A stretch of 62,474 nt of DNA from Bacillota bacterium (lineage in GTDB: Bacteria; Bacillota; UBA4882; UBA10575), in contig DUQR01000047.1 in NCBI GenBank assembly GCA_012837715.1, forward strand, positions 1 through 62,474, read 5' to 3'. Below are positions 5,434-59,504 of this stretch, piece by piece (within the stretch, counting starts at the first letter, position 1; every line of letters begins with the position of its first letter). Both the position numbers and the translations under genes were made by a program. A model generated the notes under the pieces. The model was not told the DNA's origin and made no database searches. It saw only the letters and a list, made by a program, of their open reading frames with translations.

Positions 5434-6597
5434 TTAAAAATATTCGTTCACAAAATTCCTGGTCGGCGGAAAAACGGTGTCAAGCAGTGCTCCAAGGTTC
5501 TTCCCGTAGACGGTTAGAGCGCCGCTTTCGATTAGGGCTTGGGGACGGGCCTGACCGGTGAGCAGACCGGCGAGGGCGCCGACGGAACAAGAGAGGTCTG
5601 GTTTTCCGCCGTTTTTTAGGGTTACTTTCGGCTGTCCGTTTGTGAGTTTTAGCTGGTAGAGACCGTTGTTTTCGGGCAGCAGCGGATCGGCGACCGCCAT
5701 AGTCCACTGGGCGGTAAGGGGTGGGTAGGTTAGAGCCTCCAGCGCCGACCGGACACTGGTGATCCGTCCGAGGTAGACCGGTTGGGTCTCCGGTAGATGA
5801 TAAGGGGTTAAGTGGTATACTTTGCCGTCCGTTCCGCCGAAGACGGTTCCGGGCAGGAGTGATTGGTCTATCCAGGCCAATTCGCGAAGCAGAGGACGAC
5901 CAAGGGGGGAGGTTGGTAGAACTAAGGCATAAACCTGTGGCTTGCTTGTTTGATAGGTCCCTGTTCCGACCTGCGGTGTGCCCAGCCAGATTTGGCCGCC
6001 GTCTAGGGTATGGTCTAAAAGGAGACAGGTCCAGTCTTCTTTTTCCCGTACTAAACCCCCGTCCCAAGTGGCAAGATAATGCTGATAAATCCCAGCCAAC
6101 GGTTGAGGGTCGGGTTTGGCCTGCTCAAACTGGTACCGCTCCTCAAGGGCGGGCGGAAGCCGGAATTGGTTGTTTGCTTTTATTGAGGTGGCGGGAAGGA
6201 CGAAAAGCCGGTGATCAGCCCATGCTCCCCAGCCTAAACGGGTATAAAATTCGATATTAAAAGGGAGTAAAAAAGTGAAAAAGATCTGGTTGGCCGCTAA
6301 ATGCCGGAGGGCATACGTTAGTAGAGTGCGGGCCAGTCCTAAATGGCGAAAGGAAGGCGTGGTAGCGAGGGCCAGTAAGTAAGCGGAAGAATAGACCCTG
6401 TTCCGGAGTTTAATCTTTCGGGGCGAAAGATGGACAGCGGACAGCAGGCGACTGTCGAGGAAAATTCCCAGCCCGTCGCGGGGCTGGAAACGGGTCTGGA
6501 AATACCAATCTAAAAAGGTTGGGTGGTCCTGGAAGCAGGTCTCCCACAGGACGCGGGCCTGCCCCATCTCTTCCGCGCTGAAAGGCCGGATCTCCAT
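5434..6597 (-). CDS. Eis-like GNAT acetyltransferase with SCP2-like C-terminus
   Basis: A 387-residue protein with the architecture of the Eis family: an N-terminal GNAT domain, a second degenerate GNAT-like region, and a C-terminal sterol-carrier-like domain. The N-terminal GNAT (residues 1-150) shows the acetyl-CoA loop region ALATTPSFRHLGLARTLL and the FYTRLGW segment. The end reads ...DLSCSVGALAGLLTGQARP with a final TVFPPTRNFVNEYF. Eis enzymes acetylate amines, including aminoglycosides and peptides, but the substrate here cannot be told. Its ATG overlaps the stop of the upstream DUF2156 gene by one base (TAATG), so the pair is co-translated. Confidence 0.85.
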   Translation of the reverse strand: MEIRPFSAEEMGQARVLWETCFQDHPTFLDWYFQTRFQPRDGLGIFLDSRLLSAVHLSPRKIKLRNRVYSSAYLLALATTPSFRHLGLARTLLTYALRHLAANQIFFTFLLPFNIEFYTRLGWGAWADHRLFVLPATSIKANNQFRLPPALEERYQFEQAKPDPQPLAGIYQHYLATWDGGLVREKEDWTCLLLDHTLDGGQIWLGTPQVGTGTYQTSKPQVYALVLPTSPLGRPLLRELAWIDQSLLPGTVFGGTDGKVYHLTPYHLPETQPVYLGRITSVRSALEALTYPPLTAQWTMAVADPLLPENNGLYQLKLTNGQPKVTLKNGGKPDLSCSVGALAGLLTGQARPQALIESGALTVYGKNLGALLDTVFPPTRNFVNEYF

Positions 6598-7478
6598 TAG
6601 GAAGGCACCTCCACCACTGTATATTTTTCGATCATCCGTAGCGGATGGTAACGTTCTTTGGCTTGACGGAGTCCGGGTAATCCCATATCATCTTCGCGGT
6701 TGATCAAACGGGTATCCGCCCATTCATGGGCAATAAACTGTTGGTTGATGACGGAATAGATTCCGGAGAAGGCCGGGTTGGCTTTTTCAAAATGGACAAG
6801 GACGGTATCCTTGTTGAGACGGCTGCCGATGGCAAAAGCCTGGATCTCCCCCCCTACTTCCAAAACGCCCCCTTTCAACTGAAGACGGGTATAATTAGCC
6901 AATCCTTCATTAAGGGCCAGCCGTTCTGCTTCCAGTTCGGGACCGGCGTCTTTTTCGGCCGCCCATGCTTCAAAGAGCCGCCGGCAAGCGGGAAAATGGA
7001 CGGGGGTCAGGGAATGGTAGGCGAAAGGGTAATACTGGCGGAAACGGTTAATGTGGTTCCGCTTCTGTTGGTATTTCCGACCGGGCAGTTCAATGAGATC
7101 TTTGGTCCGGTAGATATAATCCCAAAACCGGCGGTCAGGGATGCTCTGGAACTGGTTGGGCGGGAAAAGGGGAAGCATGTCCTGGGGCACGCCGCGAAAC
7201 ACAGTTGATTTGTGCTGCCGGTGGAAATAGTTGCTAATCCGTTGGAGAAGAAGGGCTGGGTCGAAGCCGGGCCTAATCAGTGGGGGTAAACAGTAGGTGG
7301 ATCCTTGGTGGGTACAGAGTAAAACGGCATAATCCGCCGTCTGTTCGATTTTAACCTGGTAGGAATCACGCCAGAGAAAAAGCGATACGGGAGAGAGGTC
7401 GGAGACTTCAATGTAAAAATCGCGAATAAAAGAAGAGTATTGCTTCAGATCAGCCCACGTTATCTCGTGAAAGTTAAT
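6597..7478 (-). CDS. DUF2156 protein, apparent ATT start
   Basis: Related to the phosphatidylglycerol lysyltransferase C-terminal (GNAT-fold) domain; members may transfer aminoacyl groups, but the function is unproven. The first conventional start (GTG 7202) would give 201 residues and cut through the first GNAT repeat. The same frame continues upstream without a stop for another 92 codons and encodes the expected family N-terminus (INFHEITWADLKQY, then SLFLWRDSYQ). A TAG precedes it. No ATG, GTG or TTG occurs there, but ATT at 7478 lies 7 bases after AGGGGGG. Using it gives 293 residues, the normal family length. It is coupled to the downstream Eis-like gene. Confidence 0.75.
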   Translation of the reverse strand: MNFHEITWADLKQYSSFIRDFYIEVSDLSPVSLFLWRDSYQVKIEQTADYAVLLCTHQGSTYCLPPLIRPGFDPALLLQRISNYFHRQHKSTVFRGVPQDMLPLFPPNQFQSIPDRRFWDYIYRTKDLIELPGRKYQQKRNHINRFRQYYPFAYHSLTPVHFPACRRLFEAWAAEKDAGPELEAERLALNEGLANYTRLQLKGGVLEVGGEIQAFAIGSRLNKDTVLVHFEKANPAFSGIYSVINQQFIAHEWADTRLINREDDMGLPGLRQAKERYHPLRMIEKYTVVEVPS

Positions 7479-7592
7479 GGCAAAGCCCCCCTAATTGTGT
7501 TAAAACCCCACATAAGTAGGGTTTTTCTTTTATTATACCTCTTTCTCTAGGCAAAGAAAAGGGGGGAATTACCAATTGAGCCCAGGCCTGTT

Positions 7593-17574: not shown

Positions 17575-17747
17575 TAAAAACCCTCCAATAATTTTCTTCT
17601 CGGCCAAACGGCTTGCTAGATCACAGTTAGTATAGACTGATTACGGAACCGGATCAAACGGGGATTACCGGGACCGGCCGGGTTGCCCTCTTTTTTCCTT
17701 CTAAATCGGTTTGTTCTTTCATAATTTGTAAAGAGGAAGCCCGGGGG

Positions 17748-19040
17748 GTGGCGACGATTACCAAAAAAAAGATCTTCTGGTTAAATATTGTATGGCGACA
17801 GGAGTATATAATTGCCATCATTTTACTAATTATCTTAGGTTTTTTCTACGGTTGGACCCGATGGGGACAGCCCGTTGAGGCTCCGTCCCTGTTACCGTCG
17901 GCGATCTCCGGGAAAATAATTGTGATTGATGCCGGGCATGGGGGTACCGACCCCGGAGCAGTCGGCCGGAGCGGACTGGAGGAAAAAGTGATCACGTTAG
18001 ACCTGGCAAAAAGGTTGAAACGGTATTTTTCCCGGGTTGGTGTTTACGTGGTGATGATCAGAGAAACGGATGTCGATTATGGCCAAATGCCCGCCGCGGG
18101 GGTGTTAACCAAGAAACGCCGGGATTTACTCCACCGGGTGCAGATGGCGAATGAAAGTAAAGCCGATCTGCTTTTAAGCATCCATGTGAACAGTTTTCCG
18201 CAGTCGATTTGGTCGGGGGCCCAATGTTTCTATGATAGTAAAATACCCGAAAGTAAGCTCTTGGCGGAGGCCATTCAAGACAGTCTGGTTACCAGGTTGG
18301 GTCCTAACCGGCGAAAAGCGAAAAGCGCCGATTATCTAATCCTGAAGGCGACCACTATGCCTTCGGTCACCGTAGAGGTGGGTTTCATCTCCAACCCCCG
18401 CGAAGAGGAACTTCTGGCCGATCCGGAATACCGGGAAAAACTAGCGGAGGCTATCTTTTACGGGACCGCTGCCTATTTGACTCAGCAAGCTCATGAGACG
18501 GTGTCGGTGGCGACCAATCCGGGCGGTGAGTCGGCTGGGCTAACCGCCAAAGTCTACCCGGAATTGACTTTTCCCACCGTTGATCCGGGGATGGCCTGTT
18601 TATACTTTGCGACGCCCAATAATGAGGATCTGAGTTTAACCCCAGAAATAAGACGCCTGCCGGAAGGAGCCGAGGGGAACAAAGAAAAAAAGGGGCAGGT
18701 TATTTTGGGAGAATTGGCGCGCGGACCGGGCGAAGGCAGCGCCCTTTTACCCTGTTTGCCGTGGGGAGATTGGGTGAAAAGTCTCCGGTTGGAAGGAACG
18801 CGGGGGGTAATTGATGTCCGTTCGGAACTGGGCACTTTTATTAACGGGGGAGGGGCTTCTGAGCTTTTGGCCATCTATAGTTTGGTCAATACTTTAGCCG
18901 TTAATCTGGAGCTCAAAGAAGTGACCATCCTGGTTGACGGGGTCAAGAGTGTGACCTTGGGCGGGCATTTTCTCCTGGATGGGCCAATCCGTCCCCGGCC
19001 GGAACTGGGGCTGACCGGGACAGAAGGGGAGACAAAGTAG
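17748..19040 (+). CDS. CwlD-type N-acetylmuramoyl-L-alanine amidase fused to a GerM domain
   Basis: A 430-residue protein with an N-terminal membrane anchor (about 17-37). An Amidase_3 domain follows (about 55-235) with zinc-site motifs VIDAGHGGTDPGA, SIHVNSF and VEVGFISNPREE. CwlD makes muramic-delta-lactam in spore cortex. After a linker rich in Gly, Pro and Glu comes a GerMN domain (about 285-410), recognisable from LYFATPNNEDLSLTPEIRRL, GELARGPG, VRSELGTFINGGGASELLA and IYSLVNTL. GerM is normally a separate sporulation/germination lipoprotein. The start is GTG after a GGGGGGTG-type site. The fusion suggests the two activities work together on cortex. Confidence 0.88.
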   Translation: MATITKKKIFWLNIVWRQEYIIAIILLIILGFFYGWTRWGQPVEAPSLLPSAISGKIIVIDAGHGGTDPGAVGRSGLEEKVITLDLAKRLKRYFSRVGVYVVMIRETDVDYGQMPAAGVLTKKRRDLLHRVQMANESKADLLLSIHVNSFPQSIWSGAQCFYDSKIPESKLLAEAIQDSLVTRLGPNRRKAKSADYLILKATTMPSVTVEVGFISNPREEELLADPEYREKLAEAIFYGTAAYLTQQAHETVSVATNPGGESAGLTAKVYPELTFPTVDPGMACLYFATPNNEDLSLTPEIRRLPEGAEGNKEKKGQVILGELARGPGEGSALLPCLPWGDWVKSLRLEGTRGVIDVRSELGTFINGGGASELLAIYSLVNTLAVNLELKEVTILVDGVKSVTLGGHFLLDGPIRPRPELGLTGTEGETK

Positions 19041-36035: not shown

Positions 36036-36096
36036 TAACGAAGGGATGAAAACTTAGAAAAGCGACCACGGAGAAAAGCTTCGGACCGAACCGGAG

Positions 36097-37881
36097 GTGG
36101 AAACCATTTTTACACAGGCGGAGGAATTACTCCAAAGATATTACGGGTACCAATCTTTTCGTCCGGGACAAGCCCGGGTGATTAAAAGTATTCTCCAAGG
36201 TTGTGATACCTTGGCCATCATGCCGACCGGGGCGGGGAAATCCATTTGTTTTCAGATCCCCGCCCTCCTCTTTGACGGGGTTACTTTAGTGGTTTCTCCT
36301 TTGATCGCGTTGATGAAGGATCAGGTTGATACCTTGACCAATCTGGAGATCCCGGCTTCTTTCATCAATAGTTCATTAAGTGCCGGTGAAGTCGAACGCC
36401 GTATTGAAAAGACGGCGGCCGGCGCCTATAAAATTTTGTATGTGGCCCCCGAGCGCCTGGCGGCCCCGACCTTTCTGGAGATGGTGAAGGAGCTGAAGGT
36501 AGCCTTTCTCGCCATCGATGAAGCCCACTGCGTTTCCCAGTGGGGTCATGACTTTCGCCCTAGTTACCGGCGGATTGCCGCCTTCGTGTCCAAATTGGCC
36601 AGGCGGCCAGTGGTCGCCGCCTTTACCGCCACTGCCACCGACCAAGTGCAGACTGATATTTTGCGCCTATTGGCCTTAAACGACCCCAATGTTTATGTGA
36701 CCGGTTTTGACCGAAGTAATCTGTACTTCAGTGTATACCGGCGGGTTAAAAAAGAGGATTTTCTCTTCTCTTATCTTGCGCAAAACGCAAATGAGAGCGG
36801 GATCATTTATGCCGCCACCCGCAAAGAGGTGGATAAGATCTATACCTTCTTGCAAGAAAAAGGATTTGCCGTCGGCCGTTATCATGCCGGTTTACGGGAA
36901 AAGGAGCGGAAGGCGGCGCAGGAGAGATTTTTGAACGATGACTTTCAGATTATGGTGGCGACCAATGCCTTCGGGATGGGGATCGATAAATCGAATATTC
37001 GATATGTAATCCATTACAATCTACCAAAGAATATGGAGGCCTATTACCAAGAAGCCGGGCGCGCCGGCCGGGACGGGGAACCAAGCGCGTGTATTCTTCT
37101 TTTTAGTCCCCAAGATATCATCATTCAAAAATACCTGATTGAACAGACGGTTTACGCACCGGCGCGCAAGAAAAACGAACTGGAGAAACTCCAAACCATG
37201 GTCGATTATGTCCATACCAATCAGTGTCTCCGCCGGTTTATCCTGGCTTATTTCGACGAAGATGATTTACCGGAAAACTGTGGGCACTGCCGGAATTGTG
37301 ATGGACAATGGATTACAGTGGATTTGACGGAAGAAGCGGAAAAGATCTTCTCTTGCATTGTCCGGATGCGGGGGGCTTACGGGATCAATCTTATTGCCCA
37401 AGTTTTAAAGGGTTCGTCCAGTAAAAAGATTAAAGGTTTGGGTTTTGACCATTTATCCACCTACGGGATTATGCAAGAGAAAACCTTGGATGAGATTAAA
37501 GACTTGATCAACCAATTGATCGCCGAAGATTACCTGGAAGTTACCGGCGGTCAGTATCCTGTGGTTAAGCTACGTCCGAAGGCGTTGGCTGTATTGAAGG
37601 GTCCCACTCAGGTTTGGGGCAAACGGGAAAAAATCGAACCGGCCTTAGCCGAAAAGGATCCCTTGTTTGAAGAGTTGCGCCGTTTGCGAAAGACCATCGC
37701 CGAACAAGAAAAGGTGCCACCCTATATTATCTTTAACGATGCTACCCTCCGGGAAATGGCCAGGAAAAAGCCGACCACCAAAGAAGAGCTTCTCACCGTA
37801 AAGGGGGTCGGCGGAAAGAAATTGGAAAAGTATGGCGCTGTTTTTTTAGCCGTGATCCGAGGGGAGGAGCCGGAATCGTGA
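36097..37881 (+). CDS. recQ: ATP-dependent DNA helicase RecQ
   Basis: 3'-5' helicase for recombination and fork repair. The protein has the Q motif (YYGYQSFRPGQ), Walker A MPTGAGKS, DEAHCVSQWGHDFRP, ATNAFGMGIDKSNIRYVIHY, and QEAGRAGRDG. A zinc-binding domain (CLRRFI...CGHCRNC), a winged helix, and a C-terminal HRDC domain (about 510-590) follow. I give the GTG at 36097 as the conventional start, but it abuts GGAG. An ATT at 36106, 6 bases after GGAGGTG, is better placed and matches the family N-terminus. Confidence 0.95.
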   Translation: METIFTQAEELLQRYYGYQSFRPGQARVIKSILQGCDTLAIMPTGAGKSICFQIPALLFDGVTLVVSPLIALMKDQVDTLTNLEIPASFINSSLSAGEVERRIEKTAAGAYKILYVAPERLAAPTFLEMVKELKVAFLAIDEAHCVSQWGHDFRPSYRRIAAFVSKLARRPVVAAFTATATDQVQTDILRLLALNDPNVYVTGFDRSNLYFSVYRRVKKEDFLFSYLAQNANESGIIYAATRKEVDKIYTFLQEKGFAVGRYHAGLREKERKAAQERFLNDDFQIMVATNAFGMGIDKSNIRYVIHYNLPKNMEAYYQEAGRAGRDGEPSACILLFSPQDIIIQKYLIEQTVYAPARKKNELEKLQTMVDYVHTNQCLRRFILAYFDEDDLPENCGHCRNCDGQWITVDLTEEAEKIFSCIVRMRGAYGINLIAQVLKGSSSKKIKGLGFDHLSTYGIMQEKTLDEIKDLINQLIAEDYLEVTGGQYPVVKLRPKALAVLKGPTQVWGKREKIEPALAEKDPLFEELRRLRKTIAEQEKVPPYIIFNDATLREMARKKPTTKEELLTVKGVGGKKLEKYGAVFLAVIRGEEPES

Positions 37882-59140: not shown

Positions 59141-59504
59141 AGTATTTTCCGGTTGGCTACAGTTATTAACCGCCATTTTTTTCTGGCTGTTTATGATATT
59201 GCTTACCCTTTTCTTATGGCCGGACTTATACGGATCCAATTTCCTAGCCCCAACTTTGCTGTTGCTTTTTTTGGCGGTGGGCGGTAGCTTTTATGCGGCG
59301 TTGTTACCGCTGCATGCCTTGCCGGTTATGATGCGGGTTATCTTCTTTTTGTTGCTGCAGTGGAGTGTCCTTCTTTTCTGGGCTTGGACCGGAGGGGAAG
59401 AATTAGGTCCCCTCCTTGTTCCTTGGCAAGGCCTTCGCCGGTTTGCCCGTTGGTGGATTACAGCGGTAATTGCTTGGTGGTCGGGAAGACATTGGGTCGG
59501 TTAA
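59103..59504 (+). CDS. Small membrane protein in the MoxR operon
   Basis: A 133-residue protein with about four membrane helices (LLTAIFFWLFMILLTLFLW, APTLLLLFLAVGGSFYAALL, VIFFLLLQWSVLLFWAW and ITAVIAWWSG). It probably supplies the N-terminal membrane part that is often fused to DUF4129 in other genomes. ATG 59103 overlaps the DUF58 gene by 38 bases; TTG 59079 is an alternative. Its stop overlaps the next gene. Function unknown. Confidence 0.7.
   Translation: MDSPLHQAQQESRVFSGWLQLLTAIFFWLFMILLTLFLWPDLYGSNFLAPTLLLLFLAVGGSFYAALLPLHALPVMMRVIFFLLLQWSVLLFWAWTGGEELGPLLVPWQGLRRFARWWITAVIAWWSGRHWVG

Follow-up and report, generated by a model that had tools for sequence, protein, structure and literature searches.

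A DUF2156 gene from a draft Bacillota genome very probably begins translation at an AUU codon, because relatives across two bacterial groups keep an AUU start. The gene lies in what we call the window, the whole stretch of DNA analyzed (62,474 nucleotides), which is one contig of a 2.4 Mb draft genome in 53 contigs. The position of the start, its Shine-Dalgarno (SD) sequence, and its conservation across both a Hydrogenispora-like family and the class Negativicutes are, taken jointly, nearly certain.

The DUF2156 locus and its product

On the minus strand, the frame runs in the order TAG (7493-7491), GGG GGC TTT GCC, ATT (7478-7476), AAC TTT CAC GAG, and onward to TAA (6599-6597). The TAG stands in frame five codons upstream of the ATT, and the 7-nt spacer CTTTGCC separates the ATT from the SD (Table 1). 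A first-pass annotation, made from the sequence alone, had described a DUF2156 gene at 6597-7478 that is bounded upstream by a TAG and whose sole well-placed initiator is the ATT at 7478, 7 bases after AGGGGGG. The sequence and the strong match to PF09924 described below bear out this description. The earliest in-frame ATG, GTG, or TTG codon is the GTG at 7202, which corresponds to residue 93, such that an AUU codon occupies the SD-defined start without an alternative initiator. Position, SD spacing, a coding signal that reaches up to the ATT, and conservation together support the assignment of this codon as the start.

Table 1. Features of the window discussed in the text, with the evidence for each.
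Feature	Position	Strand	Evidence
DUF2156 / PF09924 (LPG_synthase_C) gene, 293 aa read from ATT, tandem-GNAT fold	6597..7478	-	profile, structure
ATT (AUU) start codon	7476..7478	-	sequence, family alignment, and Negativicutes orthologues
Shine-Dalgarno AGGGGGG	7486..7492	-	computed duplex -10.9 kcal/mol, aligned spacing 7
In-frame TAG, closes frame upstream, overlaps SD	7491..7493	-	sequence
Leader hairpin AAAACCCTAC-loop-GTGGGGTTTT	7502..7525	-	folding; recurs in family
TATAAT, putative -10 box without recognizable -35	7532..7537	-	invariant in eight genus members
Eis-like GNAT + SCP2 gene, ATG start	5434..6597	-	overlaps DUF2156 stop (TAATG)
recQ, conserved ATT start (GGAGGTG-gaaacc-ATT)	36106..37881 (start region 36093-36108)	+	relatives

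The same annotation had claimed a family-like N-terminus upstream of the first canonical codon, and several observations agree with this claim. Among five genome pairs, pN/pS for residues 2-92 is 0.15-0.25, compared with 0.09-0.23 for the remainder of the protein. This similar degree of purifying selection argues that the region upstream of GTG 7202 is coding. Likewise, the alignment to the best fold match, 2HQY, starts at query residue 2 (TM 0.92/0.91 over 299 columns, 33% identity), and the AF2 model has a pLDDT of 92 overall and of 94 over residues 1-10.

The product is probably a stand-alone tandem-GNAT DUF2156 protein that functions as an acyl- or acetyltransferase. Its PF09924 match scores 169.8 bits against a gathering score of 27.5 and begins at residue 35 of the frame read from 7490 to 6600. 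As in 2HQY, two GNAT-like domains make up the full length of the model, without a membrane part. The next structural matches are MprF C-terminal domains (TM 0.65-0.69). We rejected assignment as an MprF lysyl-phosphatidylglycerol synthase, as the similarity is confined to the C-terminal domain of MprF and the 293-residue alpha/beta protein, whose frame is closed by a stop five codons before its start, has no N-terminal multi-spanning flippase domain. Two other stand-alone DUF2156 proteins offer a guide to function. BT3689 (2HQY), which is alike in fold and length, holds acetyl-CoA, and the Helicobacter pylori protein HPB8_1270, also assigned to DUF2156, contributes to the acetylation of four RNase J lysines (PMC10700544). 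Because of this ligand and these genetic data, an acetyltransferase is our best guess for the product.

In genus members, the leader presents TATAAT, then closely a hairpin (AAACCCCC-loop-GGGGGTTTT), the SD, and the ATT. The hairpin arm GGGGTTTT and the SD GGGGGG are near-copies (window 7525-7486, minus strand), and therefore the CCC arm could pair with either. We considered sequestration of the SD by the CCCCC arm and rejected it, as predicted folds pair the arm with the nearer GGGG copy, and in two genomes (L008 and L012) both arms have changed in a way that preserves the hairpin. The Negativicutes sequences read show no comparable leader. The hairpin, seen only in the window's own family, is thus a local addition and cannot be the general cause of the unusual start; that it has a 5´-stabilizing or weakly attenuating role is only a guess. 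An Rfam search yielded no match, and a promoter and terminator scan returned none, with no sigma-70 pair recognized, though all members of the genus share the TATAAT. In several of them, such as L006, a TTTCTTT..AAAGAAA inverted repeat directly precedes a conserved GAG(G/T)TATAAT, and could possibly be an operator or an unusual promoter.

Downstream, the Eis-like gene encodes Acetyltransf_9 and SCP2 domains, with Acetyltransf_17 in relatives. This partner is found in 15 of 16 own-family loci and in at least 47 of 107 Negativicutes loci, many of whose sequences end soon downstream, and its translation is likely coupled to that of the DUF2156 gene.

Conservation of the start codon

The comparison with orthologues that the first-pass annotation had suggested finds the start conserved both in the window's own family and in Negativicutes. 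The own-family genomes, among them a genus member labeled Hydrogenispora sp. (L035), are apparently metagenome assemblies. At the position of residue 1, the eight genus genomes and genera g5 and g6 all have ATT, and genus g2 has ATC. Among 12 aligned family members, 10 carry ATT and two carry ATC, and all 12 have a G-rich AGGGGG-type SD at an aligned spacing of 7-9. The codon that precedes the start varies (GCC, GTC, AAC, ATC, ACC, GTT, ATT), as does the codon that follows it, and other isoleucine positions of the gene are a mixture of ATT and ATC.

Starts were called by a homology-anchored, SD-based rule that takes competing SDs into account. By this rule, 14 of 16 own-family loci are AUU-type; the exceptions are L013, with a TTG start, and L005, which retains the conserved ATT but has a competing TTG near the SD. 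The gene is present in 140 of 150 Negativicutes genomes, which provided 107 distinct sequences for start calling. The rule assigned AUU, AUC, or AUA to 94 of these, and few members have an ATG, GTG, or TTG start (12 canonical, plus one canonical without an SD). In-frame ATG, GTG, and TTG are entirely absent between codons -12 and +3 relative to the anchor in 57 of the 94 AUU-type sequences, and in 74 sequences of the whole set. The gene from the cultured isolate Negativicoccus massiliensis (L041) begins AGGAGTGAACTATCATTAATTTT, with a TGA three codons before the ATT. Where an ATG or GTG overlaps the SD or directly adjoins it, as in some members, it is hardly usable as a start; in other members, two neighboring AUU-type codons leave the exact start ambiguous. 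AUU-type starts also occur in the smaller lineages f11, f54, and f128.

Two control genes from Negativicutes were examined. With the same SD energies and spacing limits, the 29 readable mutL genes gave 28 canonical starts, no AUU-type start, and one start without a clear SD. The infC genes, as expected, gave mostly ATT or ATA; some gave an ATG or GTG that overlaps the SD, and the motif used failed to anchor a number of infC frames. We also built a FastTree phylogeny of the DUF2156 gene without the first N-terminal columns and set five start-class labels by hand. Start class is clustered on this tree, changing 14 times compared with at least 55 times (mean 66) in 200 label shuffles.

Other AUU-type starts and alternative explanations

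Conserved AUU-type starts occur in at least six genes of the window's own family, namely infC, the DUF2156 gene, recQ, aspartate kinase, ksgA, and a gene of the TIGR03936 family. The recQ start is ATT in all seven genomes of g1, g5, and g6 in which it is readable, one of which has a TAA directly before it. A scan of the window, later extended to 811 kb of the genome, sought non-canonical codons at SD spacing with no good canonical start preceding. In the 811 kb, ATT is the commonest such codon, with 60 matches per 1000 ATT codons versus 11 per 1000 for codons other than ATT, ATC, and ATA, although a fair part of the genome-scan matches represents background.

ATT starts in the same genome were seen for aspartate kinase (L387 18531, minus strand), ksgA (L401 17732, minus strand), and the TIGR03936 gene (L415 1371, plus strand). 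Relatives were sought with one query that joined the N-terminal parts of the three proteins. In nearly all own-family genomes read, the aligned start or a codon adjacent to it is AUU-type, and for aspartate kinase most genus members carry a TGA in frame within the SD. Candidate AUU or AUC starts were noted as well for rpe (L401 2917, minus strand), RNase Y (L401 14580, minus strand), a Kbl/BioF-like gene (L417 19765, minus strand), and a lipoprotein gene (L410 18657, plus strand).

Two ATT candidates in the window were set aside. One is in cwlD, which encodes a CwlD-like amidase (Amidase_3 + Germane) and reads GGGGGGTGGCGACGATT at 17744-17759 (plus strand). The ATT at 17757 was rejected as a conserved start because most close relatives have an ATG one codon upstream. 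This ATG is ACG in the present genome, which makes the cwlD start ambiguous (GTG 17748 or ATT 17757). The other, at 59402, is doubtful, as reading from it gives a frame different from the one that matches DUF4129.

The presence of at least six AUU-type genes favors a lineage-wide habit, which could be a regulon or mere tolerance. We offer tentatively, as a speculation, that AUU is a routine fourth start codon in the Hydrogenispora-like family (about 1% of genes), that its genes form an IF3-responsive translational regulon, and that Negativicutes DUF2156 genes kept this control through most of the class. Members of the regulon would be the six genes named above and perhaps rpe, RNase Y, and others.

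Alternatively, AUU might be a start without any regulatory role, a fourth start codon tolerated in lineages with very strong SDs and kept by drift, which we consider rather unlikely. That several unrelated family genes have AUU starts, and that ATT is the commonest of the non-canonical codons at SD spacing, suggests that the codon may be broadly tolerated rather than specifically regulatory. However, although a single substitution would turn ATT into ATG, the DUF2156 genes of Negativicutes have kept AUU-type starts throughout the class, whereas mutL in the same class is canonical. Moreover, in the three Negativicutes genomes read, aspartate kinase, ksgA, and TIGR03936 mostly start at ATG.

It is highly improbable that a canonical codon serves as the start, either GTG 7202 or a leader ATG combined with frameshifting, and that the ATT is an ordinary codon. 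GTG 7202 is indeed in frame, and an ATG at 7513 in the leader opens a short frame, which is out of phase with the gene. Yet the GTG has no SD (-2.0 kcal), and its use would remove 92 conserved residues and, with them, the conserved N-terminal portion of the first GNAT-like domain. Among relatives, the residue at which a canonical codon first occurs downstream also differs widely (17-101), and the leader ATG is missing or differently framed in relatives, one of which (L011) has a stop in that region.

That the ATT reflects a mistake in sequencing or assembly, or the decayed start of a pseudogene, has a vanishingly small probability and is refuted for the group as a whole: although the window comes from a draft assembly, the base-call error that the first-pass annotation had raised is excluded because the same codon recurs in many independent assemblies of the genus, the family, and a separate class, including large single contigs (several Negativicutes loci sit in contigs of 2-5 Mb) and the named isolate, and pN/pS is well below 1 on either side of GTG 7202.

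Proposed mechanism and comparison with known systems

We hypothesize that the AUU codon would be decoded by initiator tRNA as methionine, with a predicted N-terminus of M-N-F-H-E, and that the strong SD would hold the 30S subunit at a codon against which IF3 discriminates. Expression would stay low and rise when initiation stringency falls, and the coupled Eis-like gene would use its own ATG. Considered as a whole, an AUU start joined to a strong SD that leads to low, IF3-open expression is the best explanation and a probable one. Its functional elements taken jointly, which are a low yield, dependence on IF3, and selection that favors a low dosage, are somewhat more likely than not. The start itself probably keeps production of the DUF2156 protein low. 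Low, IF3-sensitive expression is suggested by an architecture that resembles those of sigR, ccpN, and cvfC1, with a weak codon, a strong SD, and a second gene with a normal start.

IF3 destabilizes non-AUG starts, and infC, which encodes this factor, has an AUU or AUA start through which IF3 autoregulates. The infC gene of the window's genome (L138; G000) encodes an intact, full-length IF3 and itself starts at ATT (AGGAGGTGGCGGCCGATT); elsewhere in the family infC likewise has ATT, but apparently ATA in three genomes (L134, L133, and L143). The initiator tRNA was not seen, as the single CAT-anticodon tRNA found is without the initiator's first-pair mismatch.

Gene finders normally accept only ATG, GTG, and TTG, and thus the DUF2156 gene is presumably truncated or mis-started in the annotations of many genomes from Negativicutes and the Hydrogenispora-like group. 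Because most of a class has retained an AUU-type start in a gene other than infC, this gene offers a clean natural system. Why keep an inefficient codon, and is the IF3 level used as a signal? The several such genes in one family suggest that AUU starts are commoner than the few textbook cases. Loss of ksgA rRNA methylation is reported to affect initiation fidelity, which makes the presence of ksgA in this set notable.

Our literature search, mostly of sources other than subscription papers and preprints, found no paper that treats AUU starts together with Negativicutes, or start codons together with Hydrogenispora; earlier reports may exist. A survey of genes that prefer non-AUG starts is available on arXiv (Gvozdjak and Samanta, as cited in PMC9094748). 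Genes with AUU starts are already known as a kind, whereas conservation this deep in a gene other than infC, and several such genes within one family, appear to be new within the searchable literature.

The first-pass annotation named infC and pcnB as the main genes with AUU starts; both examples stand, and the list should be extended to ccpN and cvfC1 (PMC13009471) and to the GUC start of sigR (PMC5472188). Escherichia coli pcnB likewise has an AUU start on a non-ribosomal enzyme gene, where the codon limits translation (Binns and Masters, 2002, as cited in PMC13009471). It belongs to another protein family, however, and the DUF2156 start is conserved across a whole class.

The ccpN (AUA; S. 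aureus and B. subtilis) and cvfC1 (AUU; S. aureus) genes similarly have conserved non-canonical starts with extended, strong, well-spaced SDs, and these starts give about 10% of the AUG yield in reporters, in poor medium (PMC13009471). These are other genes in other lineages, and were established by Ribo-Ret and reporters, whereas the DUF2156 start is established by comparison. Streptomyces sigR, which comes first in a coupled gene pair, also combines a non-canonical start with an extended SD (PMC5472188). Its codon is GUC rather than AUU, and repression by IF3 has been demonstrated for sigR, whereas for DUF2156 we infer it. Finally, infC shares with the DUF2156 gene a conserved AUU-type start and a strong SD, down to the ATT in the same genome. 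In contrast to IF3, the DUF2156 protein is not an initiation factor, and therefore its control would be regulation by IF3 rather than autoregulation.
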